This document shows, in pieces, positions 5,793-64,000 of a DNA stretch of 64,000 nucleotides (position 1 is its first letter; each line of letters begins with the position of its first letter). This DNA is from Streptomyces sp. NBC_00459 (GTDB lineage: Bacteria; Actinomycetota; Actinomycetes; Streptomycetales; Streptomycetaceae): NCBI RefSeq assembly GCF_036013955.1, contig NZ_CP107903.1, positions 1,302,001 to 1,366,000 on the forward strand. The letters are read 5' to 3'. A program made the position numbers and the translations under genes. A model generated the notes under the pieces. The model did no database searches and was not told the DNA's origin. It worked only from the letters and a program-made list of their open reading frames with translations.

Positions 5793-7796
5793 TCAGACCG
5801 CCGCGATCCGCCGCAGCGTCTCGGCGATCGTGTCCTGCGACGGCAGCCACACCCGCTCCAGCGAGGGCGCGTACGGCGCCGGCACATGCGGCGGGGCCAC
5901 CCGGGTCACCGGAGCGTCCAGGTGCCAGAAGCCCTCGTCCACGGCGAGCGCTGCCAGTTCGGCTCCGACGCCGAAGTCCCGTACGGCCTCGTGGGCGATG
6001 ACCAGGCGGTTGGTCTTGGCGAGGGAGGCGAGGACGGTCTCCCGGTCCAGCGGGGCGACCGTGCGCAGGTCGATCACCTCCACGCTCACCCCCTCGGCGG
6101 CGAGCAGGTCGGCGGCGGCCAGGCAGTCCTGGACCATCCGCGACCAGGAGACCAGGGTGATGTCGGTGCCCTCACGGATCACCTTGGCCTTGCCCAGCGG
6201 GATCAGGTGGTCGGCCGGCGGACGCGGGCCCTTGAGGCCGTACTGGAGCCGGTTCTCCACGAAGACCACCGGGTTCGGGTCCTGGATGGCGGCACGCAGG
6301 AGGCCGTATGTGTCGGCCGGGTTGGACGGCATGACCACCGTCAGACCCGGGATGTGGGCGAGCAGGGCCTCCAGGCTCTGCGAGTGCTGGCTGCCCGAGG
6401 AGCGGCCCGCGCCGAACTGGGTGCGTACGACGAGCGGCATGGAGGCCCGGCCGCCGGTCATGAACCGCAGCTTGGCCGCCTGGTTCAGGAGCATGTCGAG
6501 GCAGACGCCGATGAAGTCCATGTACATGATCTCGACCACCGGCTTCATCCCGGCCATGGCCGCCCCGACCGCCGTACCGAGGATGGCGCTCTCACTGATC
6601 GGGGTGTCACGGACCCGGCCGGGGAAGGCGTCCGCCAGGCCACGGGTCAGGCCGAAGACGTTGCCGCCCGCGCCGATGTCGATCCCGGCGAGGAACACAT
6701 CGGGATCGGCGGCGAGTTCGTGCTCCAGCGCGAGACGTACGGCGTCCATGGAGCGGAAGACCTCACCTTCGGCGGGGGCCGGCTCGGGGATCGTGGAGCG
6801 CGGCGCCGAGACGAAGTCGTACAGGGTCTCGGGGGCCGGTTCGGGCAGGCTCCTCGCCCACTCCACGGCCGCCTCGATCTCGTTGTCGATCTCCTCGTCG
6901 ACGGCGTCGGCCAGTTGGGCCGGGACACCGGCCGCCGTCAGGTGCCGGCGGGCGACCAGCAGCGGGTCCCGGTCCTTGGCTGCCGCGACCTCCTCGGCGC
7001 TGCGGTAGCGCTCGGGGTCGCCCTCGTAGTGGCCGTGCCAGCGGTAGGTCTCGGCCTCGACGAGGACGGGCCCCGCGCCGCCGCGCAGGCGTTCCACCAC
7101 GTCGTTCATCAGCCCGGCCACCGCGAGGACGTCGTTGCCGTCGACGTGCGCGTAGTCGATGCCGTACCCGGCGGCGCGGGCGGAGAGCGGGGCGCGGTGC
7201 TGTGCGGACGCGGGCGAGAACTCGGAGTAGTGGTTGTTCTCGCACAGGAAGACCACGGGCAGATCCCATACGGCGGCCAGGTTGACTGCCTCGTGGAACA
7301 TGCCCTGGGCGACCGCGCCGTCCCCGAAGAACGCCACGACCACATCACCGGCGGCGCGCAGCTTGGCCGCGGTGGCCACCCCGGTGGCGATCGGCAGGCC
7401 TGCGCCGACGATGCCGTTGGCGCCGTAGATCCCGAGGCCCGGGTCGGCGATGTGCATCGATCCGCCGCGGCCGTGGCAGGTCCCGGCCTCCTTGCCCATC
7501 AGCTCGGCCATCATGGACGCCGTGTCGAGGCCCTTGGCCAGGACGTGGCCGTGCCCCCGGTGGGTGGAGGTGATCCCGTCGCCGGGGCCCAGCGGCCAGC
7601 AGGCGCCCACCGCACTGGCCTCCTGACCGATCGACAGGTGCAGGAAGCCGGGGATCTCCGTCGCCTTGTACAGCACGGACGCCCGCTCCTCGAAGCGCCG
7701 GATGCGTCGCATGCGGCGGTACATTTCCAGGAGCTGTTCCGCGTGCGCGGAACCGGCGGAACCGGTCGTTGTCTGGTGGGGTGCCTCGGTCGTCAT
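5793..7796 (-). CDS. fused alpha-beta thiamine-diphosphate dehydrogenase (2-oxoacid dehydrogenase E1 type)
   Basis: A 667-residue natural fusion of E1 alpha and E1 beta of the pyruvate/branched-chain 2-oxoacid/acetoin dehydrogenase family. The alpha half (to about residue 340) carries the thiamine-diphosphate motif starting GDG at 158-160 and ending CENN. The beta half begins near EGEVFRSMDAVRLALEHEL and holds the E1-beta core ISESAILGTAVGAAMAG and the C-terminal transketolase domain. Usually the subunits are separate and work with a lipoyl E2 and an E3; neither is in this window. It is divergent from the TetR gene at 8,012 with site D between. The substrate is not determinable; a diketone or 2-oxoacid from ring cleavage is plausible. 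Confidence 0.88.
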   Translation of the reverse strand: MTTEAPHQTTTGSAGSAHAEQLLEMYRRMRRIRRFEERASVLYKATEIPGFLHLSIGQEASAVGACWPLGPGDGITSTHRGHGHVLAKGLDTASMMAELMGKEAGTCHGRGGSMHIADPGLGIYGANGIVGAGLPIATGVATAAKLRAAGDVVVAFFGDGAVAQGMFHEAVNLAAVWDLPVVFLCENNHYSEFSPASAQHRAPLSARAAGYGIDYAHVDGNDVLAVAGLMNDVVERLRGGAGPVLVEAETYRWHGHYEGDPERYRSAEEVAAAKDRDPLLVARRHLTAAGVPAQLADAVDEEIDNEIEAAVEWARSLPEPAPETLYDFVSAPRSTIPEPAPAEGEVFRSMDAVRLALEHELAADPDVFLAGIDIGAGGNVFGLTRGLADAFPGRVRDTPISESAILGTAVGAAMAGMKPVVEIMYMDFIGVCLDMLLNQAAKLRFMTGGRASMPLVVRTQFGAGRSSGSQHSQSLEALLAHIPGLTVVMPSNPADTYGLLRAAIQDPNPVVFVENRLQYGLKGPRPPADHLIPLGKAKVIREGTDITLVSWSRMVQDCLAAADLLAAEGVSVEVIDLRTVAPLDRETVLASLAKTNRLVIAHEAVRDFGVGAELAALAVDEGFWHLDAPVTRVAPPHVPAPYAPSLERVWLPSQDTIAETLRRIAAV

Positions 7797-30273: not shown

Positions 30274-30295
30274 CACAGCTCCTTCAGTGGACCCT

Positions 30296-30311
30296 ATTCA
30301 GTATACGTAAT
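30296..30311 (-). promoter_or_regulatory. ATTGAGTATACTCAAT-like site 3 with TATACT box
   Basis: ATTCAGTATACGTAAT; on the minus strand TATACT at 30,305-30,300 is a -10 box for the acyl-CoA dehydrogenase at 30,273. Confidence 0.6.
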
Positions 30312-30376: not shown

Positions 30377-31849
30377 TCAGTGCCACCAGGGAATGAGTGC
30401 ATCCAAATGCCGTCCCATCCGGTGGCGGGCGACCCCCGCGTCGCCCTGCACGATCGCGTCGAGGATGCGCTGGTGCACGTGCTGGACCTCCTCGGCGGCC
30501 GTGTCACCGGGCAGCGGACGGTCGTGGCCTGAGGCGTGCCGGCGGAAGAGTTCGGTGATGATGGAGAGGAAGAGCGACAGCACCGGATTGTCGGCCAGGG
30601 CAGCCAGTTCGGAGTGGAACAGGTCGGCCTTGCGGAGTTCGTCGGCCGGACCCTCGGTGGGCCACCGGACGGCCTTCGTGAGGCGTTCGACGACCTCGGT
30701 GTCGCCTCCGGCGTGCCGGGCGGTCACCCTGGCGATGATGCCGAGTTCGATGGCGTTGCGGACGATCCGCAGGTCGTCGGCCGTGACGCCCTGGTATTCG
30801 AGGAAGAGGGCCATCGTGTCGATGCTGGCCTGCGGTTCCGGCGCGGTGACGACCAGTCCGCCGCCGGGACCCCGGCGCATACGGGCGACCGAGTGGTACT
30901 CCAGGAGCCGCACGGCCTCCCGCAGCACGGCGCGGCTGACGCCGTAGCGGGCCAGCAGGTCGGCCTCCGAGCCGAGCACCATGCCGATCTGCCAGCCACG
31001 CGCGGCGATGTCGTCGTGGATCCGGGCGGCCAGCACTTCGGCGAGCTTGGCACGCAGGCCCTCGACGAGTTCGGGCTCGATCACGTTCCCCGAGATCCGC
31101 TGCCCGCGATGCACCCGGTGCTTCTCGATCCAGGCGGCGACCGACTCCAGATGGGCGGTGAGTTCGGTCTGCGCGCGGGCGCCGTCGTCGGCGATGACGG
31201 CCTCGACGACCGCGCGGTGGGCCCGGTGCGAGGTCTCCTTCGCCGCGTGCATCTCGGCCTTGGTGACCCGGCGGGAGGTGTGCGCGTACCGGGCCGTGAG
31301 GCGGGTGAGCACATCGACGAACAGGTGCAGCACCGGGTTTCCCGACAACTGGCCGAGCACCGGGTGCAGCGGGTCCTGCGAATGGACCGACGGGTCGTCC
31401 CAGTGGGCGAGTTCGCTGTCGAGCGTGGCGCGGAGGGTGGCGATGCCCTCTTCGGTGATGCGGTCCGCGGCGAGGCCCGCGGCGATCGGTTCGAGGAGCT
31501 GACGGGCCTGAAGGAGGTCGGTGACGCTGGTGCCGACGTACTCCAGGTAGATCACCATGGCCCTGGTCGCCGGTCCCGCGTCGGGGGCGCAGACGATCAG
31601 GCCGCCGTTCGGGCCGCGCCGCATCCGGGCGACCTGGTGGTGCTCGACCAGCCGTACCGCCTCGCGCAGCACCGCGCGGCTCACCCCGAGGCGTTCACGG
31701 AGGTCCACCTCCGAGCCCAGGGACTCGCCGACGGGCCAGCCCTGGCGGATCACGGTCGCCTCGATACGGTGCGCGGTCTGTGCGGCCAGTTTGCCGACCG
31801 GGACACCGGTCTCGCCGTCGGCGGGTTCGCGGTCGACGGCAGTCGCCAT
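30377..31849 (-). CDS. tandem (double-length) GntR/FadR-family regulator
   Basis: A 490-residue protein made of two complete FadR-type GntR regulators head to tail. Copy 1 has its winged helix at about 20-90 (GVSRAVLREAVRLVEHHQVA) and an FCD effector domain to about 235; copy 2 has its winged helix at about 255-335 (GVSRAVLREAVRLLEYHSVA) and FCD domain to the end. Ordinary family members are about 230 residues and dimerise, so this one can act as a built-in dimer. FCD domains of this type usually bind acyl-CoA or organic acids. Its own promoter carries a copy of the ATTGAGTATACTCAAT-like site. I propose it as the regulator of the fourteen such sites. ATG with GAGGAG upstream. Confidence 0.93.
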   Translation of the reverse strand: MATAVDREPADGETGVPVGKLAAQTAHRIEATVIRQGWPVGESLGSEVDLRERLGVSRAVLREAVRLVEHHQVARMRRGPNGGLIVCAPDAGPATRAMVIYLEYVGTSVTDLLQARQLLEPIAAGLAADRITEEGIATLRATLDSELAHWDDPSVHSQDPLHPVLGQLSGNPVLHLFVDVLTRLTARYAHTSRRVTKAEMHAAKETSHRAHRAVVEAVIADDGARAQTELTAHLESVAAWIEKHRVHRGQRISGNVIEPELVEGLRAKLAEVLAARIHDDIAARGWQIGMVLGSEADLLARYGVSRAVLREAVRLLEYHSVARMRRGPGGGLVVTAPEPQASIDTMALFLEYQGVTADDLRIVRNAIELGIIARVTARHAGGDTEVVERLTKAVRWPTEGPADELRKADLFHSELAALADNPVLSLFLSIITELFRRHASGHDRPLPGDTAAEEVQHVHQRILDAIVQGDAGVARHRMGRHLDALIPWWH

Positions 31850-39316: not shown

Positions 39317-39332
39317 ATAAAGTATACTCAAT
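39317..39332 (-). promoter_or_regulatory. ATTGAGTATACTCAAT-like site 7 with TATACT box
   Basis: ATAAAGTATACTCAAT, one of the closest matches to the consensus. On the minus strand TATACT is a -10 box for the acyl-CoA synthetase. Confidence 0.62.
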
Positions 39333-43735: not shown

Positions 43736-43751
43736 AAAAAGTATACTGTTT
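43736..43751 (+). promoter_or_regulatory. site 9 with TATACT box; probable leaderless start
   Basis: AAAAAGTATACTGTTT. TATACT (43,742-43,747) ends nine bases before the ATG at 43,757, and no ribosome binding site intervenes, so transcription should begin at or within a few bases of the start codon. Confidence 0.62.
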
Positions 43752-43756
43752 TCGGC

Positions 43757-45076
43757 ATGCTGGATTTCTCGATCGAACCCGATTTCCAGGCCAAGCTGGA
43801 CTGGGCGACGACCTTCGTACGCGAGGAGGTCGAGCCCCTCGACCTCCTGTTCCCGCACGGGGGCGACCCGTACGACACCCGCAACGAGAAGGCCCGTGCG
43901 ATCCTGCGGCCGCTCCAGGACACGGTCAGGGCGCAGGGCCTGTGGGCCTGCCATCTCGGCCCCGAACTGGGCGGCGCGGGGTACGGACAGGTGAGGCTCG
44001 CGTACCTCAACGAGATCCTGGGCCGCTCCTACTGGGCCCCCACGGTCTTCGGCACCGCCGCCCCCGACACGGGCAACGCCGAGATCCTCGCCATGTTCGG
44101 CACCGAGGAGCAGAAGGCCCGCTATCTGCGGCCGCTGCTCGACGGGGACATCGTGTCCACCTTCTCGATGACCGAGCCGCAGGCGGGCGCCGACCCAAAG
44201 GAGTTCGTCTGCCATGCCCGGCGCGACGGGGACCAGTGGGTGATCGACGGCGAGAAGTGGTTCTCGTCCAACGCCCGTTACGCGGCCTTCCTCATCGTCA
44301 TGGCCGTCACCGATCCGGACGCGCCGCCGCACGCCCGCATGTCGATGTTCATCGTGCCCGCCGAGACACCGGGCATCGAGATCAAGCGCAACGTCGGCAC
44401 CATGGACGAACGCGACAGCCTCGACGAGGGCATCCACGCCTACATCCGCTACGACCAGGTCCGGGTCCCGCTCGACGCCATGCTCGGCGGCCCCGGCGAG
44501 GGCTTCAAGGTCGCCCAGGCCCGCCTCGGCGGCGGCCGGGTGCATCACGCGATGCGTACGGTCGGCAAGTGCACGCGGGCCTTCGACATGATGTGCGAAC
44601 GGGCGCTGTCCCGACGTACGCAGGGCACTCTGCTCGCGGAGAAGCAGGCGGTGCAGCAGTTCATCGCGGACTCCTGGGTGGAGTTGCAGCAGTTCCGGCT
44701 GCTCGTGCTGCACACCGCCTGGATCATCGACACCCAGCCGCACGGCGCGGCCCGCACCCAGATCGCGATGTGCAAGGTCCAGACGGCCAAGGTTCTGCAC
44801 GACATCATCCAGCGGGCCCTGCATGTGCACGGCTCGCTCGGCACGACCAACGAACTGCCGCTCGCCAAGTGGTGGATGGCCGCACCGAACCTCGCCCTCG
44901 CCGACGGCCCCACCGAGGTGCATCGCACGACGATCGCCAGGCGGCTGCTGAAGAACTACCGGCCTGCGGAGGGCCTGTTCCCCAGCGAGCACATTCCGCC
45001 GAAGCGGGAGGCCGCCCGCAAGCGGTACGCGCACATCGTCGAGGACGAGGGCCTCGCGGGGCGGGCGGACGTATGA
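43757..45076 (+). CDS. acyl-CoA dehydrogenase, ACAD11/LvaC-like
   Basis: A 439-residue acyl-CoA dehydrogenase of the ACAD10/11 subgroup: FSMTEPQAGADPKEFVCHAR, GEKWFSSNARYAAFLIVMAV, VHGSLGTTNELPLAKWWMAAP and the subgroup ending ADGPTEVHRTTIARRLLKNY. In the levulinate pathway of Pseudomonas, LvaC of this subgroup converts 4-phosphoacyl-CoA to an enoyl/3-hydroxyacyl-CoA. The kinase, small partner, SDR and acyl-CoA ligase of that pathway are all encoded next door, supporting this reading. It overlaps the SDR by ATGA. It has no ribosome binding site. Confidence 0.9.
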   Translation: MLDFSIEPDFQAKLDWATTFVREEVEPLDLLFPHGGDPYDTRNEKARAILRPLQDTVRAQGLWACHLGPELGGAGYGQVRLAYLNEILGRSYWAPTVFGTAAPDTGNAEILAMFGTEEQKARYLRPLLDGDIVSTFSMTEPQAGADPKEFVCHARRDGDQWVIDGEKWFSSNARYAAFLIVMAVTDPDAPPHARMSMFIVPAETPGIEIKRNVGTMDERDSLDEGIHAYIRYDQVRVPLDAMLGGPGEGFKVAQARLGGGRVHHAMRTVGKCTRAFDMMCERALSRRTQGTLLAEKQAVQQFIADSWVELQQFRLLVLHTAWIIDTQPHGAARTQIAMCKVQTAKVLHDIIQRALHVHGSLGTTNELPLAKWWMAAPNLALADGPTEVHRTTIARRLLKNYRPAEGLFPSEHIPPKREAARKRYAHIVEDEGLAGRADV

Positions 45077-45849
45077 GCGGCGACCGCGATACGAGGTCCG
45101 TCGCGCCGGCCGACCTGTTCGACCTGTCCGGCAAGGTCGCGCTCGTCACCGGCGGCAGTCGGGGACTGGGGCGCGAGATGGTGCGCGCTTTCGCCGCCGC
45201 CGGGGCGGATGTGGTGATCGCCAGCCGCAAGGCCGACGCGTGCGAGGCGGTGGCCGCGGAGGTCCGTGACCTGGGTCGGCGTGCGCTGCCGGTCGCCGCG
45301 CACGTGGGGCACTGGGACGACCTCGGTCTGCTCGCCGACGCGGCGTACGAGGAGTTCGGGAAGGTCGACGTCCTCGTCAACAACGCCGGTATGTCGCCGT
45401 TGGCGCCGTCGTCCGCCGGGACCAGTGAGGAACTGTTCGACAAGGTCGTCGGGGTCAACTTCAAGGGGCCGTTCCGGCTCGCCTCGTTGGTCGGGGAGCG
45501 GATGACGGAGGGGGGTGGCGGCTCGATCATCAACGTCTCGTCGTCGGGCGCGTTGTTTCCGCAGCCGCGGTTCGGTCCTTATGCGGGGGCGAAGGCGGCG
45601 TTGAACGCGCTGACGACTGTCTTCGCCCTGGAGTACGGGCCGAGTGTGCGGGTCAACACGATCTCGGCGGGGCCGTTTCTGACGGACGTCTCCAAAGCCT
45701 GGTCCGAGGAGAAGCGGCAGAGTACGCGCAGTGCGGTGGGGCGGCCCGGGCGGCCGGAGGAGATCATCAGTACGGCGTTGTATCTGGCGAGTGACGCGTC
45801 CAGCTATACGACGGGGGCGCTGATTCGCGTGGACGGTGGGTTGTACTAG
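45073..45849 (+). CDS. SDR, LvaD-like by context
   Basis: A 258-residue SDR: LSGKVALVTGGSRGLGREMV, VDVLVNNAGMSPLAP, catalytic Tyr and Lys in FGPYAGAKAALNAL, and SSYTTGALIRVDGGLY at the end. The start overlaps the acyl-CoA dehydrogenase stop (ATGA). In the levulinate pathway LvaD reduces the 4-ketoacyl-CoA to the 4-hydroxy form; the gene order here gives the same candidate role, though the sequence alone shows only an SDR. Confidence 0.88.
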   Translation: MSGDRDTRSVAPADLFDLSGKVALVTGGSRGLGREMVRAFAAAGADVVIASRKADACEAVAAEVRDLGRRALPVAAHVGHWDDLGLLADAAYEEFGKVDVLVNNAGMSPLAPSSAGTSEELFDKVVGVNFKGPFRLASLVGERMTEGGGGSIINVSSSGALFPQPRFGPYAGAKAALNALTTVFALEYGPSVRVNTISAGPFLTDVSKAWSEEKRQSTRSAVGRPGRPEEIISTALYLASDASSYTTGALIRVDGGLY

Positions 45850-45861
45850 GTGGTTCGTTGG

Positions 45862-45917
45862 CTGCGGGCCGGTGGGGGCTGGTCGCGCAGTTCCCCGCGC
45901 CCCTTTCGGGGCGCTGG
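45862..45917. repeat. Streptomyces-type intergenic repeat, copy 2
   Basis: GGCTGGTCGCGCAGTTCCCC and a GCGCCCCTTTCGGGGCGC hairpin, between convergent SDR and kinase-like genes; it may terminate both transcripts. Confidence 0.78.
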
Positions 45918-45952
45918 TCTGCACCCAGGATCCCCGGCACCGCCCAGCAACC

Positions 45953-46978
45953 TCAGCCCAGCAGTTGCATCGCCTCGTCGAGCAGGACCGGCAACGCGGG
46001 CAGCATGCGCTGGTGCATGTCGGTCAGGTGATCCGCCTTCCTGCCGCGCTTGATCAGCAGGGCCGTGGCGGCGGACTCCTTGTACTTCGTCAGGGCCTCG
46101 AACCACCATAGGTCCGGGAGCCGTTCGCCCCGGGCCTCCTCGTAGGTGTCGATGAGTTCGGCCTTGCCCGGCATGCCGGTCGGCTCCGGGGACAGGGACG
46201 CCGGGTGGTCGGCCTCGTCCGTGAAGAAGGTCAGCCAGGTGATGTCGACCCTGGGGTCGCCGAGCGACCAGATCTCCCAGTCGATGACCGCGTTGACCGA
46301 GTCCGCGTCGCACAGTGTGTTGCCGAGGCGGTAGTCGCCGTGGGTGAACACCGGCATCATCGCGGCGGGAACGGTCGCGCGCAGCCGGTCCGCGACCGCC
46401 TCGTAGCCGGTGCGCAGGTCCTCGGGGACCGTCGTGAACGCCCGGGTCCAGCGGTTGATCTCGGCGCCGGGCGTGACAACCGGCTCCACGGCGAGGGCGG
46501 TTCGCTTGGGGTCCGTGCGGTGCAGGTGGGCGAGCATCCTGGCCGCGTCCAGGGCCCGGGCGCGTACCTGCGCGGCGGACAGTGCGCCCCGGGGCACGAG
46601 CACCGGTTCCACACAGTCCCCGGGCACCAACTCCATGGCCACGAAAGGCTGTTGGGCCGGGGGTGCACCCTTCTCCCAGAACAGCACCTTCGGCACCCGC
46701 ACGCCGGGCACGCCCGCCAGTACGTGCATGAGCCGCGCCTGGCGCAGCACGTCCCGGTTGCGGACCGGCTGGAGGCCGGGCGGGGCCACTTTGAGGACGA
46801 CGCGCTCGTGTCCGTCGGGGACGCCGGACAGTTCGGCGACGTAGGTGAGGCTCGATGTGCCGCCGGTGAGCGGTTCGACCGACACCACCGTGCCCTCGGG
46901 GGCCCAGCCGCGCAGTGCCTCGGCCGTGCGGCGCGTCAACTCCGTTATCGGATCAGTGCTGTTGGCGACGGTGCTCAT
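45953..46978 (-). CDS. APH-family phosphotransferase, LvaA/ACAD11-kinase-like
   Basis: A 341-residue kinase of the aminoglycoside phosphotransferase fold. TGGTSSLTYVAEL forms the nucleotide loop, VVLKVAP has the ATP-binding Lys, FTHGDYRLGNTL (His213, Asp215) is the catalytic loop and VIDWEIWSLGDPRVD the metal-binding segment. In ACAD11-type systems this domain phosphorylates the hydroxyl of a 4-hydroxyacyl-CoA. Close presence of the ACAD11-like dehydrogenase argues for that substrate class over antibiotic resistance. Last gene of the minus-strand small protein-ligase-kinase group. Start chosen at 46,978, with GAGAGACC upstream. Confidence 0.9.
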   Translation of the reverse strand: MSTVANSTDPITELTRRTAEALRGWAPEGTVVSVEPLTGGTSSLTYVAELSGVPDGHERVVLKVAPPGLQPVRNRDVLRQARLMHVLAGVPGVRVPKVLFWEKGAPPAQQPFVAMELVPGDCVEPVLVPRGALSAAQVRARALDAARMLAHLHRTDPKRTALAVEPVVTPGAEINRWTRAFTTVPEDLRTGYEAVADRLRATVPAAMMPVFTHGDYRLGNTLCDADSVNAVIDWEIWSLGDPRVDITWLTFFTDEADHPASLSPEPTGMPGKAELIDTYEEARGERLPDLWWFEALTKYKESAATALLIKRGRKADHLTDMHQRMLPALPVLLDEAMQLLG

Positions 46979-47038
46979 GGACCGGTCTCTCATCCTTGTC
47001 GGCCGACGGCCTGGCAGCTGCGTACGTCGGTCAGCGGG

Positions 47039-48538
47039 TCAACGGTCGGCGGTCAGTGCCTCGACGATGTCGCGGCGCACGAGCTTGCCGGTCGGGGTGC
47101 GGGGCAGTTCGGGCCAACGGGTGATGCGCTCCGGCGTCTTCGAGCCGCGCAGCGTGCCGCGCACCTGCGCACGCAGGTCTCCGGCGTCGACCTCCGCACC
47201 GTCCCGGACCACGACCACGGCCTCGATGCGCTGGCCCCACTCCTCGTCCGGGACACCGACGACGACCGCGTCCAGCACGTCCGGGTGGCGCAGCAGGACG
47301 TCCTCGATCTCGGCGGGCGCGATGTTCTCGGCTCCGCGGATGATCGTGTCGTCGGCCCTGCCCTCGATGTGGAGGTAGCCGTCGGAGTCGATCCGCCCCT
47401 GGTCGCGGGTGTGGAAGAACCCGCGCTCGTCGACCGCGCAGCCCTGCCCGGCGTACTCCCCCGACACCTGGTCGCCACGCACCCAGATCTGCCCGGTCCT
47501 GCCGGGGGCGACGACCGCGCCGGACGCGTCACGGACCTCCAGTTCGACACCCGGCAGCGGCAGCCCGGCGGACCCTAGCCGGGCCCGTACGGCGGGATCG
47601 GCGCTCGCGACGGCCGTGCGATGCTCCTGCGGGCCCAGGACGGTGATGGTGGACGAGGTCTCCGTCAGCCCGTAGGCGTTCACGAAGTCGACGTGCGGCC
47701 AGGCATGCAGCGCGGTCTCGATCACCCTTACGGGCATCCTGGCCCCGCCGTAGGCGAGCGCGCGCAGCGAGGGCACCGAGCGGTCCAGGCCGTCCGTGTC
47801 CATGATGCGGGCCAGCATCGTCGGCACCACCATGGCGTTGGTGACGCGCTGCCGCCGTACGAGGTCCAGCCAGCCCTCAGCGGTGAACTGGTCGAGGCTC
47901 AGGGCGCGGCGCCCCGCGTACAGGTTGGTCAGCACGTTCGACACAGCGGCGATGTGGTAGGGCGGCACGCTCACCAGGGCTGCCTCGTCCGGTCCCGCGC
48001 CGGCGAACTCCACAGTGCCGAGTACGTAGGACACCAGGTTGTGGTGGCGCAGGACCACGCCCTTCGGCGTCGAGGTCGTACCGCTCGTGTAGATGAGGAC
48101 CGCCGGGGAGTCGGGCGCCGGCGCCGGTTCCTCGCCGCCCGGAGCGGCTGCGGCCCGGGCCGCCTCGGTGAGCCACTGGTCCGGGCTGCGTACGGCGAGC
48201 CCGGCCCGGCGCAGTGCCTCGCCGTGTTCCGGGTCGGCGATACCCAGGGCGCGAGGGTGGTTCGCCAGCAGCGCGTCCAACTGCGCTTCCCCCAGGCGGT
48301 AGTTGACCGGGATCAGCGGGACTCCGGCGTGGGCCGCGGCGAACAGCGCGACCGGGAGGGCCGGGCCGTTCACCGCCAGGTACACGATGGCGTCAGCGTC
48401 GGCCGCGCGCACCGACCGGGCTCCGCCAACGGCCAGTTCACGTAGCCGCGGGGCGGTGAGCCCGTCGTCAGCGCGACCGATCAGGACCCGGTCGTCGAAT
48501 CCCTCGGCGGCCATGTCCAACAGCATCGCTATGTTCAT
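47039..48538 (-). CDS. acyl-CoA synthetase (AMP-binding), LvaE-like by context
   Basis: A 499-residue adenylate-forming ligase: LIYTSGTTSTPKGVVLRHHN, NAYGLTETSSTITVLG, hinge DQGRIDSDGYLHIEGRADD and PRTPTGKLVRRDIVEAL with the catalytic Lys. The ATG follows GGGAG and lies 16 bases after the small-protein gene. In the Lva pathway the ligase forms the CoA thioester before reduction and phosphorylation. One of three AMP-binding ligases in the window. Confidence 0.9.
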   Translation of the reverse strand: MNIAMLLDMAAEGFDDRVLIGRADDGLTAPRLRELAVGGARSVRAADADAIVYLAVNGPALPVALFAAAHAGVPLIPVNYRLGEAQLDALLANHPRALGIADPEHGEALRRAGLAVRSPDQWLTEAARAAAAPGGEEPAPAPDSPAVLIYTSGTTSTPKGVVLRHHNLVSYVLGTVEFAGAGPDEAALVSVPPYHIAAVSNVLTNLYAGRRALSLDQFTAEGWLDLVRRQRVTNAMVVPTMLARIMDTDGLDRSVPSLRALAYGGARMPVRVIETALHAWPHVDFVNAYGLTETSSTITVLGPQEHRTAVASADPAVRARLGSAGLPLPGVELEVRDASGAVVAPGRTGQIWVRGDQVSGEYAGQGCAVDERGFFHTRDQGRIDSDGYLHIEGRADDTIIRGAENIAPAEIEDVLLRHPDVLDAVVVGVPDEEWGQRIEAVVVVRDGAEVDAGDLRAQVRGTLRGSKTPERITRWPELPRTPTGKLVRRDIVEALTADR

Positions 48539-48554
48539 CGGCCCGCTCCCGCCC

Positions 48555-48872
48555 TCAGTCCGAGGCCGGGAGCGGCTTGGCGCTCTTCATCGGCATGGGG
48601 ACGCCGTTCACCGCCAGCGTGCCCTGTCCCTGCCTGGTGCAGAGCAGTTCCAGGCCGAGGTCCTCGGCGGCGTACCTCTTGCCGAGCAGGGAACCGCCCA
48701 TCAGGCCGGGGTCGGGGTCTGCGGTGCCGGTGGCGGCGGGCCCCGGCCCGTTCGCCTCGGCCATGGCCGCCCCGCCGCAGGTGATCTCCAACTCCTGCTC
48801 CGGGCACCGAACGACGATCACCGCCGTGGTGTCGACCGTACTGGCGAGCATCTGCCCCACACGTGGCCTCAT
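48555..48872 (-). CDS. small conserved protein, candidate LvaB-like kinase partner
   Basis: A 105-residue protein with VIVVRCPEQELEITCGGAAM, GKRYAAEDLGLELLCTRQGQ and a closing MKSAKPLPASD. I recognise this as a small actinobacterial/proteobacterial conserved protein type but not a named domain. Its position beside an APH-type kinase, ACAD11-like dehydrogenase, SDR and ligase matches LvaB, the small protein needed with LvaA for 4-hydroxyacyl-CoA phosphorylation. Three cysteines (in VRCPE, ITCGG, LLCTR) could bind metal. ATG with GGAGGA upstream; first gene of its operon. Confidence 0.65.
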   Translation of the reverse strand: MRPRVGQMLASTVDTTAVIVVRCPEQELEITCGGAAMAEANGPGPAATGTADPDPGLMGGSLLGKRYAAEDLGLELLCTRQGQGTLAVNGVPMPMKSAKPLPASD

Positions 48873-48921: not shown

Positions 48922-48937
48922 AAAAAGTATACTACTT
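48922..48937. promoter_or_regulatory. site 10 with TATACT box
   Basis: AAAAAGTATACTACTT in the divergent gap between the small protein (48,872) and the crotonase (48,992). The central GTATAC gives TATACT on the plus strand and AGTATA complement on the other, so either direction could use it. Confidence 0.58.
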
Positions 48938-58878: not shown

Positions 58879-58921
58879 TTACGGCTCCCCTTTGAGCTCG
58901 TTGACCAACTGCTATCAACCG

Positions 58922-59464
58922 CTACCAACCGACAAGCCTGTCCAGCACGAGCGTCGCGCTCGACAGGTAGTCGCCGTATCCGCCCCGGAAGAACAGCAAC
59001 GGGGTTTTCGGTGATTCGACGCGGAGATCGCGGACCCGTCCCACGACCAGCCAGTGATCGCCGATCTCGACGAACTGCTCGACCGTGCAGTCGACCCAGG
59101 CGACCACTCCGTCGAGCACGGGACTGCCCAGCGCGGACGCGTTCCAGTTGGTGCCCTCGAACCGTTGCGAGGCCCGGCCCGCCAGCTGCCGGGACAGTCG
59201 TTCCTGGTTGCCCGCGAGCGAATTGGCGCAGAAACGGCCGGCGGTTCGGATCGTCCGCAGGGTCGTGGAGGAACGGTCGACGAGAAAGGACACCAGGGGC
59301 GGGTCCAGGGAAACGGAGGTAAAGGTCCCGACCACCATTCCGTGCGGCCGCCGTTCGGCGTCCGTGGTGGTGATCGCGACCACGCTCGTGGGGAAGTTTC
59401 CCAGGACGTCGCGGAATCGGCGCCCGTCGATCGAATCCGCCGGACGACCGGAACTGTCGCTCAT
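58922..59464 (-). CDS. hsaB: flavin reductase component (HsaB-like)
   Basis: A 180-residue flavin reductase-like protein: FRDVLGNFPTSVVAITTTDA, HGMVVGTFTSVSLDPPLVSF, and GDHWLVVGRVRDLRVE are hallmarks of the HpaC/HsaB family. It supplies reduced flavin to HsaA for 3-HSA 4-hydroxylation. It starts nine bases after the hsaA stop, matching the usual two-component pairing. Confidence 0.92.
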   Translation of the reverse strand: MSDSSGRPADSIDGRRFRDVLGNFPTSVVAITTTDAERRPHGMVVGTFTSVSLDPPLVSFLVDRSSTTLRTIRTAGRFCANSLAGNQERLSRQLAGRASQRFEGTNWNASALGSPVLDGVVAWVDCTVEQFVEIGDHWLVVGRVRDLRVESPKTPLLFFRGGYGDYLSSATLVLDRLVGW

Positions 59465-59473
59465 CCGGTCTCC

Positions 59474-60655
59474 TCAGATCAGAATGCGCATCGGCTCGGG
59501 CAGCTCAAGTCCCATCTGGGCCAGGGCGTTCGCGTGATAAGCCGCCCCGGGAACATGGATCATGTGCTGGAGTCCGACGTGCGCGTCCCGCCAGAACCGC
59601 TGCATCGGATTGCCCCGCCGGATCGCGTTCCCGCCGGACCTGGCGAAGATCTCGTCCAGCGCGGAGACGGCCCGCCAGGCGCAACGGACCTGGTTGCGCC
59701 GTACGTCGGCCCGGTCCTCGATGCCGATGGGCTTGCCGGCCTCGACCTGGTCGTACAACCGGCTGATGCCGTCGATGAGTTGGACCCGGGAGGCGGCGAT
59801 CTCCGCAGCGGCCTCCCCGGCGGCGTAGAGGACGTAGGGGTCGTCACGCACCTGGACGCCGGTCACGGCGACCCGGTCGCGCTGCTGGGCCAGGTGCACG
59901 GCGAGCGCGCCCTCGCAGATGCCGATGACCGCAGCGGTGATGCCGAGCGGGAACATCGAGCTGAAGGGCAGCTTGTAGAGGGTGTCGGTGAGCCCGACGG
60001 CCTCCGCGGCGGCGCCCTCCTGGACGGCCTCCTGGCGGATGGCTCGGTGCTCGGGGATGAACGCCTTGTCGACGACGACGTCCTTGCTGCCGGTGCCCGA
60101 CAGCCCGACCACGTCCCAGGTGCCGTCGATGATCTCGTAGTCCGAGCGGGGCAGCACGACGTGCAGGACGGTGATGGGCCCGGCGGGCCGCCCCTTGCCG
60201 TCGCCGAGCAGTGCGCCGAGGAAGTCCCACTGACAGTGGTCGCTGCCGGAGGAGAACGGCCAGCGTCCGCTGAGGACATAGCCGCCGTCCACCGGTTCGG
60301 CGATGCCGTTGGGCATGTAGGGCGAGGCGATCCAGGTGTCCGGGTCGTCGTCCCACACCTCGTGTGCGAGCCGGGGATCCATCTGGGCCAGCTCCCAGGG
60401 GTGCACCCCGACGACTCCGGCCACCCAGCCCGCGGCTCCGTCGTGCCGGGCGACCGCCATCACCGCTTCCGCGAAGTCCCGGGGGTGAGCACCGAATCCG
60501 CCGAACTCCTTGGGCTGCAGAAGCCGGATGACCCCTGCGGACTTGAGCAGTTCGACGGTCCGGTCGCTCAGTCTGCCGAGTGACTCGTTCTCGTCGGCGA
60601 GTGCGGCCAGTTCGGAACCCAGCTCCTCGACACGACCGACCACTTCATGCGTCAC
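59474..60655 (-). CDS. hsaA: flavin-dependent 3-HSA hydroxylase oxygenase component
   Basis: A 393-residue group D flavin monooxygenase with acyl-CoA dehydrogenase fold, the same length as known HsaA. FLGALLGDGKGRPA, PRSDYEIIDGTWDVVGLSGTGSKDVVV, and PMQRFWRDAHVGLQHMIHVPG match HsaA-type hydroxylases. It hydroxylates the phenolic A ring of 3-HSA to the catechol cut by HsaC. The GTG at 60,655 has AGGAGG upstream; the frame reaches 60,697. First gene of hsaA-hsaB, 125 bases after mftF on the same strand. Confidence 0.92.
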   Translation of the reverse strand: MTHEVVGRVEELGSELAALADENESLGRLSDRTVELLKSAGVIRLLQPKEFGGFGAHPRDFAEAVMAVARHDGAAGWVAGVVGVHPWELAQMDPRLAHEVWDDDPDTWIASPYMPNGIAEPVDGGYVLSGRWPFSSGSDHCQWDFLGALLGDGKGRPAGPITVLHVVLPRSDYEIIDGTWDVVGLSGTGSKDVVVDKAFIPEHRAIRQEAVQEGAAAEAVGLTDTLYKLPFSSMFPLGITAAVIGICEGALAVHLAQQRDRVAVTGVQVRDDPYVLYAAGEAAAEIAASRVQLIDGISRLYDQVEAGKPIGIEDRADVRRNQVRCAWRAVSALDEIFARSGGNAIRRGNPMQRFWRDAHVGLQHMIHVPGAAYHANALAQMGLELPEPMRILI

Positions 60656-60780
60656 GCCGCACACCTCCTGGCAACTGATCCATCGCGTACGCCGCACGTC
60701 CCCGGCGGCAGGATGTCCTCAGTGTCGTGACGCCCCCCGAGGCCCGCTGAACGCTTTCCGCTGACCGGGACAGGCGCGCC

Positions 60781-62178
60781 TCAGCGGGTGACGCGGGGCC
60801 GCAACGCGGCGGTGGAGCGGCCTTTGAGGGCGGAGAACCACACGCCGGCGCCGTAGGCGAGGTCGTCCAGTCGGCGGGCGACGCCGTAGCGGAGCGGGTC
60901 CAGTGAGTCGTCGCCGCGCCGGTACTCGAGTGCGATGTCGGCCAGAGCGGCGACCGCTGCGGCCCGCCGCATCCGCCGGGACATCAGGCAGCCGACGGCG
61001 GTGAGCGGCCACCAGTGCCGGGTGAGCAGCGCGGAGGTCTGCGCCAGGGTGGCGAGGGCCCCGTTGCCCGCGAGCGGCACGGCCAGCCGGTACGGATGCC
61101 GGGTGCCCTCGAACTTGCGGCCGATACGCAGGACGACGACGCCGAGAACGGTCCCCGCGACCGGCGCCGACCAGCGCCGTTGGGCGAGCAGCGCGGCGGC
61201 GAACACCGCGCTCCAGGGGGCGAACACGGCCGGCGCGATGTTCTCGGGGTGCCGCAGGGCGAGCGGATGCGCCCCGGTCCCGTACACGGCCTTGCGCAGG
61301 AACCAGTCGCCCACCCGCACCCGGTGCTCGTGGGAGGCGCGGACGGCGGGCTCGTAGCGCACCCGCAGCCCCGCCCGGAGCAGTCGCCAGCACAGGTCGA
61401 CGTCCTCCCCCACCCGCATCGCCTCATCGAACCCGCGCCCGTCCCGCAGCGCGTCCACCCGTGCCACCGCGCAGGCCGTCGGCGCCCAGGAGACGGGCGT
61501 GCCGGGGCGCACCGCGGCCGGGTGGGCGCCGAGGTCGAGGGAGGACCGGGTGTTCTCGTACCGCTCGATCCAGGTGGTGGCGCCGCCGCCCAGACCGGTG
61601 ATGCGGGGTACGGCCATGGCGACCCGGGGATCGGCGAAGTGCCGGAGCAGGGTCGGCACCGTGTCGGGGTTCAGCACGATGTCGGAGTCGGCGAGGACGA
61701 CGTAGGGCGTGGTCACGTGGCGGAGCCCGGCGTTGCGCGCACCGGCGGGGCCGGTGTTCGTGTCCAGGGCGACCAGGCGGGCGCCGTACCGGGCGGCGAC
61801 GGCCGCCACGGGGGTCGGGTGCCGCGAGGCGTCGTCGACCACGATCACGGGCGGGCCCGTGCCGATGCTGCGCAGGAGCCGGTCCAGTTGGCGCGGACGG
61901 TCGCGGACCGGGATCACGACCGTGTACCGGGGGTCGCGCGGCATGGGCAGCGAGTCGACGACGGGTTGGGCCAGGCCGCAGTCGATCAGCCGGTCCGCGA
62001 GGAGCGCGCTCGCCGCGTCCCGTACGGGAATTGTCCGACCGACGACGAGTTTGCGGGCCCGCGGTGTCAGTCGTAGCAGGCGGGTCGGGAATCCGCCGAC
62101 GAGGGCGCGCCCGCCGTCGACGACGCGGGTGTGCCGGTCGAACGCGACGACGACACCGACGTCGGCGGGAAGCGTCAT
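60781..62178 (-). CDS. mftF: mycofactocin glycosyltransferase MftF
   Basis: A 465-residue family 2 glycosyltransferase that adds the oligoglucose chain to (pre)mycofactocin. GT-A core: YTVVIPVRDRPRQLDRLLRS, VIVVDDASRHPTPVAAVA, YVVLADSDIVLNPD (the DxD), GEDVDLCWRLLRAG; the N-terminal part and C-terminal hydrophobic segments agree with MftF. The start overlaps the mftE stop (ATGA). Gene order D-E-F on one strand is that of known mycofactocin clusters. Confidence 0.93.
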   Translation of the reverse strand: MTLPADVGVVVAFDRHTRVVDGGRALVGGFPTRLLRLTPRARKLVVGRTIPVRDAASALLADRLIDCGLAQPVVDSLPMPRDPRYTVVIPVRDRPRQLDRLLRSIGTGPPVIVVDDASRHPTPVAAVAARYGARLVALDTNTGPAGARNAGLRHVTTPYVVLADSDIVLNPDTVPTLLRHFADPRVAMAVPRITGLGGGATTWIERYENTRSSLDLGAHPAAVRPGTPVSWAPTACAVARVDALRDGRGFDEAMRVGEDVDLCWRLLRAGLRVRYEPAVRASHEHRVRVGDWFLRKAVYGTGAHPLALRHPENIAPAVFAPWSAVFAAALLAQRRWSAPVAGTVLGVVVLRIGRKFEGTRHPYRLAVPLAGNGALATLAQTSALLTRHWWPLTAVGCLMSRRMRRAAAVAALADIALEYRRGDDSLDPLRYGVARRLDDLAYGAGVWFSALKGRSTAALRPRVTR

Positions 62179-62906
62179 CGGCGTACGGACCCGGTACGGC
62201 GGGCCGGATCGGCGAGGCGGCCCCGGTAGTCGACCGTCCACGCGCCGATCCGGCGGACCGTGGCCGACACCATCGCCTCCATCGTCCGGCTGCCCTCCTC
62301 GGCCGAGGCCCCGGCAGGATCGCCGAGCACACCGGAGGGCGAGACGGCGCGGACACCGTGGGCAGCGAGATCCGGCAGGAGGTCGGGCAGGGGGCGTGTG
62401 TCGCCCGCGACGGCGGCGCCGAGCCGTACGCGCGCCGGGTCCAGGTGCAGCATCAGGGAGGTCTCCGTACGACCGGCGTGCGCGTCACCGCCGGGTGTCC
62501 CGCAGGCGGTCCAGGCGATGTCGTGGCCCTCGGCGCGCAGCAGGCGGAGGGCGGTGTCGAGGGTGGCGGTGTTGCCTCCGTGGCCGTTGACGAACACGAT
62601 GCGGCCCGCCCACAGGGAGAGGGAGCGTGTCAGTTCCACGACCACCGTGCTCAGCGCCTCGTGCCCGATCGAGACGGTCCCCGGGAAGTGCGCGTGTTCG
62701 CCGCTGGCGCCGTAGGCGACCGGCGGTGCCACCCACGACGCGGGCAGGGCGTCCGCCGTGCGCTGTACGACGGCACGGGCGACGACGGTGTCGGTGTCGA
62801 GCGGCAGATGCGGGCCGTGCTGCTCGGTGGACCCGACCGGGACGAGGACCAGCACACCGGACGGTACGGCCGGCCAGACGGCGTCGGCCAGGACGTGCGG
62901 CGCCAT
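62175..62906 (-). CDS. mftE: mycofactocin precursor peptide peptidase MftE
   Basis: A 243-residue creatininase-family metallopeptidase that releases the C-terminal Val-Tyr-derived core from modified MftA. Metal-binding motifs are VGSTEQHGPHLPLDTDT (Glu, His, Asp), FVNGHGGNTATLDTAL and DAHAGRTETSLML. The ATG at 62,906 lies two bases after the mftD stop. The frame open upstream to 63,533 is antisense-type noise within mftD. Confidence 0.93.
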   Translation of the reverse strand: MAPHVLADAVWPAVPSGVLVLVPVGSTEQHGPHLPLDTDTVVARAVVQRTADALPASWVAPPVAYGASGEHAHFPGTVSIGHEALSTVVVELTRSLSLWAGRIVFVNGHGGNTATLDTALRLLRAEGHDIAWTACGTPGGDAHAGRTETSLMLHLDPARVRLGAAVAGDTRPLPDLLPDLAAHGVRAVSPSGVLGDPAGASAEEGSRTMEAMVSATVRRIGAWTVDYRGRLADPARRTGSVRR

Positions 62907-62908
62907 GG

Positions 62909-64000
62909 TCAGGCGACCGGGGCGGGACCCGGGAGGTCGGCGCCGCCCAGGGTCAGTGGGAAGCCCGGCGGTATCACCAGGTCCTCGGGCGACAGCTCGT
63001 GGACCGAGGAGTGACCGAGGCCCAGTACCGCCGAGTCGAGGCCGCCGCGCAGGATGTCCAGCACGTTCGCCACGCCGGCCTGCCCGTTGGCGGCCAGGCC
63101 CCACAGGTAGGCGCGGCCGATCAGGACGGCTCGGGCGCCGAGGGCGAGTGCCTTCGCGACATCGCTGCCGCGCCGGATGCCGCCGTCCAGAAGGACCTCG
63201 ACCTGGTCGCCGACCGCCTCCACGACGGACGGGAGCACGCGGATCGTGGCCGGGGTGGTGTCCAGGTTGTTCCCGCCGTGGTTGGACACGGACAGCGCCG
63301 ACACCCCCGCGTCGACCGCCCGTCTGGCGTCGTCGACCCGGGTCACCCCCTTGAGGAGGAAGGGTCCGCCCCACTCGGCGCGCAGCCACTTGACGTCGTC
63401 CCAGGTCGGCGGCGCGGTCTGCATCCACTCGCCGTAGGCGCCGAAGAAGGTGGGCGACCGGCCGCCGGGGGCCCGCAGGTTGGGCACGGTGAGGTCGGGG
63501 AGTCGGCCGGACCGGGCGTACTGCCAGAGCCACTTGGGCCGGGGCAGCACATCGGGGGCGAACCGCAGCGCGGTCCGGAGATCGAGCTTCTCCGGTATGG
63601 AAGGGCTCCCCCAGTCGCGGCCGTGGGAGAACGACCAGTCCAGGGTGACTATGAGGGCCTTGGCGCCGGCCGCCCTGGCCCGGTCCATCCGCTGGACCAT
63701 GGTGTCGCGCGTGCCGCTCCAGTAGAGCTGGTAGAAGAAGTCCGGCTGGGCGTCGGACACCTCCTCCACCGGCTTGCTCGCGAACGAACTGAGGCCCATG
63801 ACGACGCCCCGGTCGGCAGCGGCCCGGGCGACGGCGACCTCGCCGTCCGGGTGGACCGCCTGCACCCCCGTCGGCGAGATGAGCACCGGCAGCGAGGTGT
63901 GCACGCCCATTACCGTCGTCGACAGGTCGCGCTGCGCGTGATGTCCCACGACGCGCGGGGCGAAGCCCAGTTCGGCGAAGGCAGTGATGTTGTCGTCGAT
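62909..64000 (-). CDS. mftD: pre-mycofactocin synthase MftD (partial at 5' end)
   Basis: The last 363 residues of an FMN-dependent alpha-hydroxyacid dehydrogenase family protein, running off the window end. In the mycofactocin pathway MftD deaminates the cyclised core to give the redox-active pre-mycofactocin. LPVLISPTGVQAVHPDGEVA, LIVTLDWSFSHGRDW, SNHGGNNLDTTPATI (catalytic His) and LLDGGIRRGSDVAKALALGA are visible. The first visible residues IDDNITAFAELGFAPRVVGH continue in frame, so the true start is beyond 64,000. mftA, mftB and mftC are expected just outside. Confidence 0.92.
   Translation of the reverse strand: MDDNITAFAELGFAPRVVGHHAQRDLSTTVMGVHTSLPVLISPTGVQAVHPDGEVAVARAAADRGVVMGLSSFASKPVEEVSDAQPDFFYQLYWSGTRDTMVQRMDRARAAGAKALIVTLDWSFSHGRDWGSPSIPEKLDLRTALRFAPDVLPRPKWLWQYARSGRLPDLTVPNLRAPGGRSPTFFGAYGEWMQTAPPTWDDVKWLRAEWGGPFLLKGVTRVDDARRAVDAGVSALSVSNHGGNNLDTTPATIRVLPSVVEAVGDQVEVLLDGGIRRGSDVAKALALGARAVLIGRAYLWGLAANGQAGVANVLDILRGGLDSAVLGLGHSSVHELSPEDLVIPPGFPLTLGGADLPGPAPVA

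Follow-up and report, generated by a model that had tools for sequence, protein, structure and literature searches.

The stretch of DNA analyzed here (the window, 64,000 nucleotides) corresponds to positions 1302001-1366000 of the single-contig genome (9.76 Mb) of Streptomyces sp. NBC_00459. Between positions 43,757 and 48,872 of the window lie five genes, coding for an acyl-coenzyme A (CoA) dehydrogenase-fold enzyme (ACAD), a short-chain dehydrogenase/reductase (SDR), a small-molecule kinase of the aminoglycoside phosphotransferase (APH) fold, an adenosine monophosphate (AMP)-dependent acyl-CoA ligase and a small protein of 105 residues (Table 1). An original prediction had read them as a counterpart of the levulinate operon lvaABCDE, and its description of five genes within 5.1 kb arranged as two convergent operons was confirmed by the listing of open reading frames (ORFs), in which all five are present. 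The ACAD, the SDR and the kinase probably constitute a three-enzyme cassette for the ATP-driven dehydroxylation of 4-hydroxyacyl-CoAs, as suggested by conserved residues and gene neighborhoods, following an Lva-like logic with a non-orthologous kinase.

A codon-position GC filter retained four of the five ORFs, the SDR being supported instead by its Pfam match and by the ATGA overlap that joins the ACAD stop codon to the SDR start. Four of the five proteins matched Pfam, the exception being the 105-residue protein. The SDR and kinase genes converge, with 103 bp between their 3′ ends; this stretch (45850-45952) is G/C-rich and of inverted-repeat character, as is common between Streptomyces genes.

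Table 1. Genes and operator-like sites of the locus (window coordinates)
Feature	Position	Strand	Evidence or context
ACAD11-type acyl-CoA dehydrogenase-fold enzyme	43757..45076	+	Best PDB matches, residue alignment, motif survey
SDR oxidoreductase	45073..45849	+	Pfam adh_short, ATGA overlap; homologue at 35/38 loci
APH-fold small-molecule kinase	45953..46993	-	PF01636 (E 1.3e-30), tree, key residues, model
AMP-dependent acyl-CoA ligase	47039..48538	-	AMP-binding Pfam; homologue in 11/38 loci
105-residue protein	48555..48872	-	Predicted structure, ligase neighborhood
Operator-like 12-mer AAAAAGTATACT	43736..43747	+	Upstream of ACAD gene and divergent CoA-transferase gene
Identical 12-mer AAAAAGTATACT	48922..48933	+	Between 105-residue protein gene and divergent enoyl-CoA hydratase gene
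Third copy, 1 mismatch in the 12-mer, exact 9-mer core	39317..39328	+	Upstream of AMP ligase gene starting at 39,290 (-)

The dehydrogenase and its conserved neighbors

Among PDB sequences, the window ACAD was best matched by 4hr3 and ACAD11 (E values of 1.6e-84 to 1.8e-73), followed by the next ACAD family at 7.7e-45, which corresponds to a lead of at least 28 orders of magnitude over other ACADs. The catalytic Asp of ACAD11 has been described as D753, and R626, H634 and R637 as its phosphate-binding residues (PMC12440821). The residue alignment revealed that all four are matched in the window enzyme, which carries the RLGGGRVHHAMR phosphate-site motif, with HAMR at the place of the ACAD11 HCMR motif, and has the ADGPTEVHR ending. 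The motif frame and the Asp were found in all 105 collected ACAD rows (104 distinct), with His in 99 and Tyr in six; the 80 named loci described below were picked by ACAD similarity, so that their ACAD conservation is partly by construction. One locus came from two sources (L074 and L158), and ORF starts in the collected loci were chosen by script. As a control, the genome's 39 ACAD matches were ranked and the loci of the best 30 inspected; only three carried the motif, which was missing from the other 27. The assignment of the window ACAD to the ACAD11/LvaC mechanistic type is supported by these sequence comparisons, and a function as the phosphate-eliminating enzyme is proposed. The earlier description of this protein as LvaC/ACAD11-like is upheld as regards the mechanistic type, with the Asp and the Arg/His/Arg residues kept, and fails as regards orthology. 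In fact, the protein is 39% identical to mouse ACAD11 and 58% identical to a paralogue at 1.866 Mb of the same genome, and the ACAD tree, obtained by a quick method without bootstrap and without LvaC among its rows, splits it deeply from ACAD11 and 4hr3; its membership in the LvaC/ACAD11 subfamily was rejected on these grounds.

The association with the kinase was first evident within this genome. Among its 39 ACAD matches, three had E < 1e-60, the next being at 9.6e-43; the window kinase used as query found three kinases (E ≤ 0.001), and each of these three ACADs has one of them within 0.9 kb. The distances from the three ACADs to the nearest of the 34 PF01636 matches of the genome were 66, 367 and 1,135 bp, while for the other 36 ACAD matches the nearest was 1,606 bp away, beside one of the three pairs. 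The two further pairs of a kinase and an ACAD11-type enzyme are placed at 613944-616093 (L102) and 1864502-1866664 (L104), the latter being nearer to ACAD11 and to 3dxp and 0.5 Mb from the window pair.

Other genomes gave a consistent picture. Eighty named loci, the best matches listed by ACAD similarity, were divided into the 38 closest (L155-L192), whose ACADs are 66-97% identical to that of the window, and 42 more distant ones (L193-L234). The closest ACADs, at 97% identity and below, are mostly from Streptomyces. A kinase was present within 4 kb of the ACAD in 36 of the 38 closest loci, the exceptions being L164 and L167 (short contig), and 35 of the 38 have an SDR homologue of at least 50% identity no more than 2.5 kb away, in agreement with the prediction that the ACAD belongs to one set with the kinase and the SDR. 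Gene order varies, with kinase-ACAD-SDR and ACAD-SDR-kinase in one direction in some lineages (L169, L173). Moreover, a search that started from the kinase, and was therefore free of ACAD-selection bias, albeit small, placed 11 of 13 matches in relatives (at least 40% identity, the window's own excluded) no more than 2.3 kb from an ACAD11-type gene. A conserved cassette of kinase, ACAD and SDR is thus supported at the level of gene neighborhoods. For the SDR, NCBIfam offered general SDR names and no specific role, and a function as 4-oxoacyl-CoA reductase is proposed. Two window-clade kinases per cluster were seen in L162 and L165, one (47-48%) directly upstream of the ACAD and the other (73-76%) at a position like that of the window kinase.

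These neighborhoods bear on the idea that an ordinary acyl-CoA dehydrogenase merely adjoins an antibiotic-type phosphotransferase by chance. The kinase does have the APH fold and is weakly matched by the APH(3′) model, with a score of 35.7 that is far under the cut-off of 205. The retention of a kinase near the ACAD under several different gene orders (36 of 38 loci), together with the lack of the phosphate-site motif in 27 of 30 ACAD loci of the same genome, makes a chance neighborhood extremely improbable. A function of the kinase as an antibiotic phosphotransferase was likewise rejected on the basis of that score and of the genomic context, and the warning in the original prediction that such a label would mislead was borne out.

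Relationships of the kinase

The kinase, for which an alternative internal start is possible at 46,978, presents RQ at helix C, HGDYRLGN and IDWE, so that the catalytic HGD, Asn and DWE are intact. Its similarity to ACAD11 is detectable (E 6.6e-12). In a tree of 77 rows, which included ACAD11 and lacked LvaA, and in which the PDB kinases were represented only by the stretches aligned to the window kinase, it fell in a clade of 37 rows with support of 100/96, all of them with HGD. R86 and R176 of ACAD11 have been proposed as CoA contacts (PMC12440821); the R86 equivalent is retained in 36 of the 37 clade members, and Glu occupies the position of ACAD11 Gln177 in all 37. The helix-C Glu and the equivalents of R86, R176 and Gln177 are all kept in two paralogue groups (34 rows). 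The model of the kinase had a mean predicted local distance difference test (pLDDT) score of 83.9; the structure models of the locus, this one included, were built on shallow alignments (16 and 22 rows). The folds nearest to the kinase model were 3dxp (Z 24.6), 25-hydroxysteroid kinase (25-HSK; 22.8) and Rv3168 (21.7); the absence of ACAD11 chains from the 50 listed rows of Foldseek or VIA-align for this model is uninformative. The kinase is therefore best regarded, from its sequence relationships, as non-orthologous to the LvaA/ACAD11 kinases and as belonging to a separate branch of the APH fold. Its original placement in the LvaA/ACAD11 clade was abandoned, given the separate branch and the loss of one proposed CoA arginine throughout its own clade, although the expected similarity to the ACAD11 kinase was indeed found.

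Several observations weigh against the proposed dehydroxylation cassette. A branch with support of 94/88, just under the level that the tool marks with a star, parts the window kinase clade from ACAD11, from 3dxp and from both paralogues of the same genome. The helix-C Glu is replaced by Gln, and the R176 equivalent is missing, in 37 of 37 clade members; because both residues are gone and the clade is separate, recognition of CoA esters by the kinase is not secured. The best solved profile match of the kinase is 25-HSK, which acts on a free alcohol. As for the ACAD, its subfamily is sister to the one that holds ACAD11 and 4hr3, and in six loci (L139-L144), where a kinase of the window clade lies beside an ACAD11-like ACAD, the phosphate-site His is Tyr. 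The pairing itself has limits: two of the 13 matches of the kinase-first search (L135, L138) lacked an ACAD11-type gene across the 20 kb taken, as did two more distant kinases of 27-33% identity (L145, L146), and 33 of the 42 more distant loci, some on short contigs, had no detectable kinase within 4 kb of the ACAD, the remaining nine having one.

As a rival reading, the enzyme could be a 25-HSK-like kinase of hydroxysteroids or other free alcohols, activating an alcohol of a steroid intermediate for elimination, and the ACAD would either remove the phosphate or act at another step. In a profile search of PDB sequences with the kinase, 9fsg (25-HSK) ranked first and 9o56 second; 25-HSK and Rv3168 are on the same side of the 94/88 branch as the window clade and share its helix-C Gln; ring-cleavage-type genes are near the candidate; and 25-HSK has been reported as up to 46% identical to actinobacterial phosphotransferases (PMC8449060). 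However, the clade has HGD instead of the WGD of 25-HSK and Rv3168 and keeps the R86 equivalent in nearly all members, the identity of the window kinase to 25-HSK (28%) is about the same as that to ACAD11 (27%) and Rv3168 (29%), 3dxp is ahead of 25-HSK in the fold ranking, and the conserved neighbor of the kinase is a phosphate eliminase of acyl-CoA type. Taken together, this explanation is considered unlikely.

Alternatively, the ACAD could act on a polycyclic CoA ester in an unrelated way, for instance by plain dehydrogenation or by hydration, with the kinase serving another substrate of the cluster. Many ACADs of this type have no detectable kinase nearby: in L201-L202, L204-L206, L208, L210-L212, L214-L216 and L220, mostly from mycobacteria, ACADs of about 60% identity to that of the window and with the full phosphate-site motif had none detected within about 9 kb. 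The phosphate-site residues are conserved even in such kinase-less loci, which counts against a different chemistry, and the kinase pairing is strong within the window ACAD's own subfamily; this alternative was accordingly judged decidedly unlikely.

Within the preferred reading of a phosphorylation-elimination cassette, the kinase may be exchangeable. When the label "window-type kinase" is mapped onto the ACAD tree, six changes are needed, at least four of them forced by supported branches. The partners of the window kinase clade are window-type ACADs, L136 and L137 from the same half of the tree, and the six ACADs near ACAD11 (L139-L144). Conversely, the 36 paired loci among the 38 closest comprise 22 with a window-type kinase and 14 with ACAD11-side kinases; all 14 are from Pseudomonadota, and lineage separation contributes to this pattern. 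In a separate observation, ACADs closely related to that of the window are accompanied in L180, L182-L184, L187 and L189-L192, all from Pseudomonadota, by kinases that carry HGDVGTPN and not HGDYRLGN, the motif of L188 being HSDLGTPN. Given that kinases of the window clade occur beside ACADs of distant subfamilies, and that ACADs of the window subfamily have partners from two clades of kinases, it may tentatively be suggested that kinases which are not orthologous can replace one another as partners of ACAD11-type eliminases, and that the window kinase represents a separate clade of hydroxyacyl-CoA kinases which, without LvaB and without one of the two arginines proposed to contact CoA, would act as a swappable substrate adaptor for bulky CoA esters derived from steroids or terpenoids.

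Ligase, small protein and genomic setting

An AMP-ligase homologue was found in only 11 of the 38 closest loci; the view that the ligase is a constant component of the cassette was rejected, and it would be an accessory. The 105-residue protein had no Pfam, NCBIfam or PDB sequence match, and a profile of its family found none in the PDB either. Homologues were present in 25 of 199 genomes, its own included. From 34 listed places, 30 were taken, leaving out that of the window and three weak ones; an AMP-ligase homologue was within 1 kb in 16 of these 30 loci, an ACAD11-type gene within 5 kb in four, and a kinase within 5 kb in three, all of which carry the orthologous cluster in members of the same genus. 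The predicted structure (mean pLDDT 77.4) consists of two three-strand units. Residues 3-40 were superposed on desulforedoxin (1dxg) with 1.1 Å over 36 residues and Z 3.3, the first of three rows with Z ≥ 2, and in Foldseek the full-length model matched 1dxg at rank 9 with a TM score of 0.82 by target length (1.2 Å over 34 columns) and a non-significant E value of 4.7. A zinc-ribbon Pfam family was matched by three of 16 members of the protein's family (best E 5.7e-4) and not by the window protein. Desulforedoxin has four Cys per chain; the window protein has three, and 44 homologues have 0-4. With moderate confidence, the modeled fold and the gene neighborhood suggest that this protein is probably a tandem desulforedoxin-like (zinc-ribbon-like) partner of the ligase.

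The original proposal that this protein is LvaB was not sustained. LvaB was compared through DUF6285, which we take to be the LvaB family: DUF6285 adjoins a kinase in six of six loci inspected, 38 of 396 genomes sampled from the phylum have it, and a search of this genome did not detect it; a literature search on DUF6285 returned nothing. The lack of a family match, the desulforedoxin-like model and the preference for ligase neighbors (16/30, against 3/30 for the kinase) led to the rejection of the LvaB assignment. LvaB has been described as a 12 kDa binding partner of LvaA, P. putida needed lvaB to grow on levulinate, and LvaB was not found in the analyzed region of P. citronellolis (PMC6692424). 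Furthermore, an LvaA orthologue from B. pseudomallei substituted for the kinase part of ACAD10 in a study whose main text never mentions LvaB (PMC11342911). In light of the P. citronellolis and B. pseudomallei cases, a lack of LvaB is not necessarily an argument against function, even though growth of P. putida needed lvaB. It is nevertheless very improbable that the locus is a bona fide Lva operon equivalent with LvaA-E all present. The prediction of one candidate for each Lva protein remains valid in that each broad kind of gene occurs once within 5.1 kb, and it fails for the kinase, of a different clade, and for the small protein, of a different predicted fold and partner; DUF6285 was not found in the genome, and a pair closer to ACAD11 resides at 1.864-1.867 Mb.

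The palindrome reported at 43,736 and 48,922 was verified as an identical 12-mer. Allowing up to two mismatches, the 12-mer had six matches in the window, with 0.04 expected from shuffles; these correspond to four places, because two match on both strands. Its 9-bp core, AAGTATACT, occurs three times in the genome, all in the window (39,320; 43,739; 48,925). About four copies per genome are expected from base composition, and the reversed control gave four, so that the core cannot be considered genome-rare and only its clustering is notable. Both sites (AGTATACT) were kept in 11 of 14 distinct syntenic loci (12 of 15 with one locus counted twice), and L162, L163 and L165, among those examined, were without both. 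Nine bases separate the TATACT at 43,742-43,747 from the ACAD start codon, which is compatible with a leaderless transcript. A related site, GTATAC, lies at 30301-30306, upstream of an ACAD gene whose start is at 30,276. The regulator encoded at 30,377-31,849, in which GntR and FCD domains are doubled, may be a candidate reader of these operator-like sites.

Concerning the wider setting, a 4-hydroxy-2-oxovalerate aldolase and an acetaldehyde dehydrogenase were found in the window above NCBIfam cut-offs, and HsaC-, HsaD-, KstD- and 2-keto-4-pentenoate-hydratase-type genes matched below them. Given these ring-cleavage-type genes, a ring compound is likely the food of the cluster. Streptomyces sp. 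NBC_00080 carries a very similar run of genes on a linear plasmid of 561 kb (L237, NZ_CP108236.1:417957-459258), so that the cluster segment may be mobile. Elsewhere in the window, a single 667-residue protein encoded at 5793-7796 unites pyruvate-dehydrogenase-type E1 alpha and beta parts. From the gene order in NZ_CP108236.1, a flavin-dependent hydroxylase, its reductase and mycofactocin genes are probably placed at 58900-63949, where the sole part tested gave a PF08028 match at 59,477-60,697.

Proposed route and known counterparts

In the route suggested here, the SDR would reduce a 4-oxoacyl-CoA to the 4-hydroxyacyl-CoA, the kinase would phosphorylate the 4-hydroxyl with ATP, and the ACAD-fold enzyme, with its catalytic Asp, FAD and Arg/His/Arg on the phosphate, would eliminate phosphate to yield a 2-enoyl-CoA, which could then enter beta-oxidation. 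The elimination step is inferred from the matching residues together with the published ACAD11 chemistry. The AMP ligase and its zinc-ribbon-like partner would probably form a CoA ester for the same catabolic cluster and would not be part of the kinase. The nearby ring-cleavage-type genes suggest as substrate an acid from a steroid- or terpenoid-like compound.

Phosphorylation followed by phosphate elimination, by which hydroxy acids are channeled into beta-oxidation, has been reported in Pseudomonas, where levulinate is degraded, and in mammals, where the substrates are 4-hydroxy acids. A conserved cassette of actinobacteria that relies on another kinase would extend this chemistry to the catabolism of ring compounds and would correct "aminoglycoside phosphotransferase" annotations, and the natural pairings of kinase and ACAD would allow the question of substrate choice to be asked. 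Literature searches on hydroxyacyl-CoA kinases in steroid or actinobacterial contexts, and on LvaC/ACAD11 in Streptomyces or Nocardia, retrieved as relevant only the 25-HSK and the ACAD10/11 work, respectively.

Regarding known counterparts, the model of the small protein resembles desulforedoxin (1dxg) in the aligned residues 3-40, its second half repeating the same three-strand pattern, and differs from it in having two tandem units with only three Cys in the whole chain. The kinase shares with 25-HSK of Sterolibacterium denitrificans (PDB 9fsg, 9ft5; PMC8449060) and with Rv3168 (3ats) an APH-like fold and the helix-C Gln, and with the former also the principle of a dehydration driven by ATP within a steroid pathway; it differs in having HGD where both have WGD, at 28-29% identity. 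With mammalian ACAD10/ACAD11 the locus has in common the ACAD Asp, the Arg/His/Arg phosphate site, the HGD...N of the kinase and its R86 equivalent; there, kinase and ACAD are one fused chain, whereas here they are separate convergent genes, the kinase having Gln and not Glu at helix C and no R176 equivalent, and the ACAD being 39% identical to ACAD11.

The lvaABCDE operon of Pseudomonas putida KT2440 (PMC6692424, PMC11342911, PMC12440821), as presented in these sources, likewise groups a kinase, a phosphate-eliminating ACAD and an SDR, with a ligase nearby. In contrast to it, the window locus has a kinase of another clade, an ACAD of a sister subfamily, no LvaB-like protein found and a facultative ligase, and it is split into two convergent units in a cluster of ring-degradation type. 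Therefore, the window cassette seems more probably than otherwise to work like the Lva/ACAD11 route, yet it does not belong to the Lva set in its defined form.

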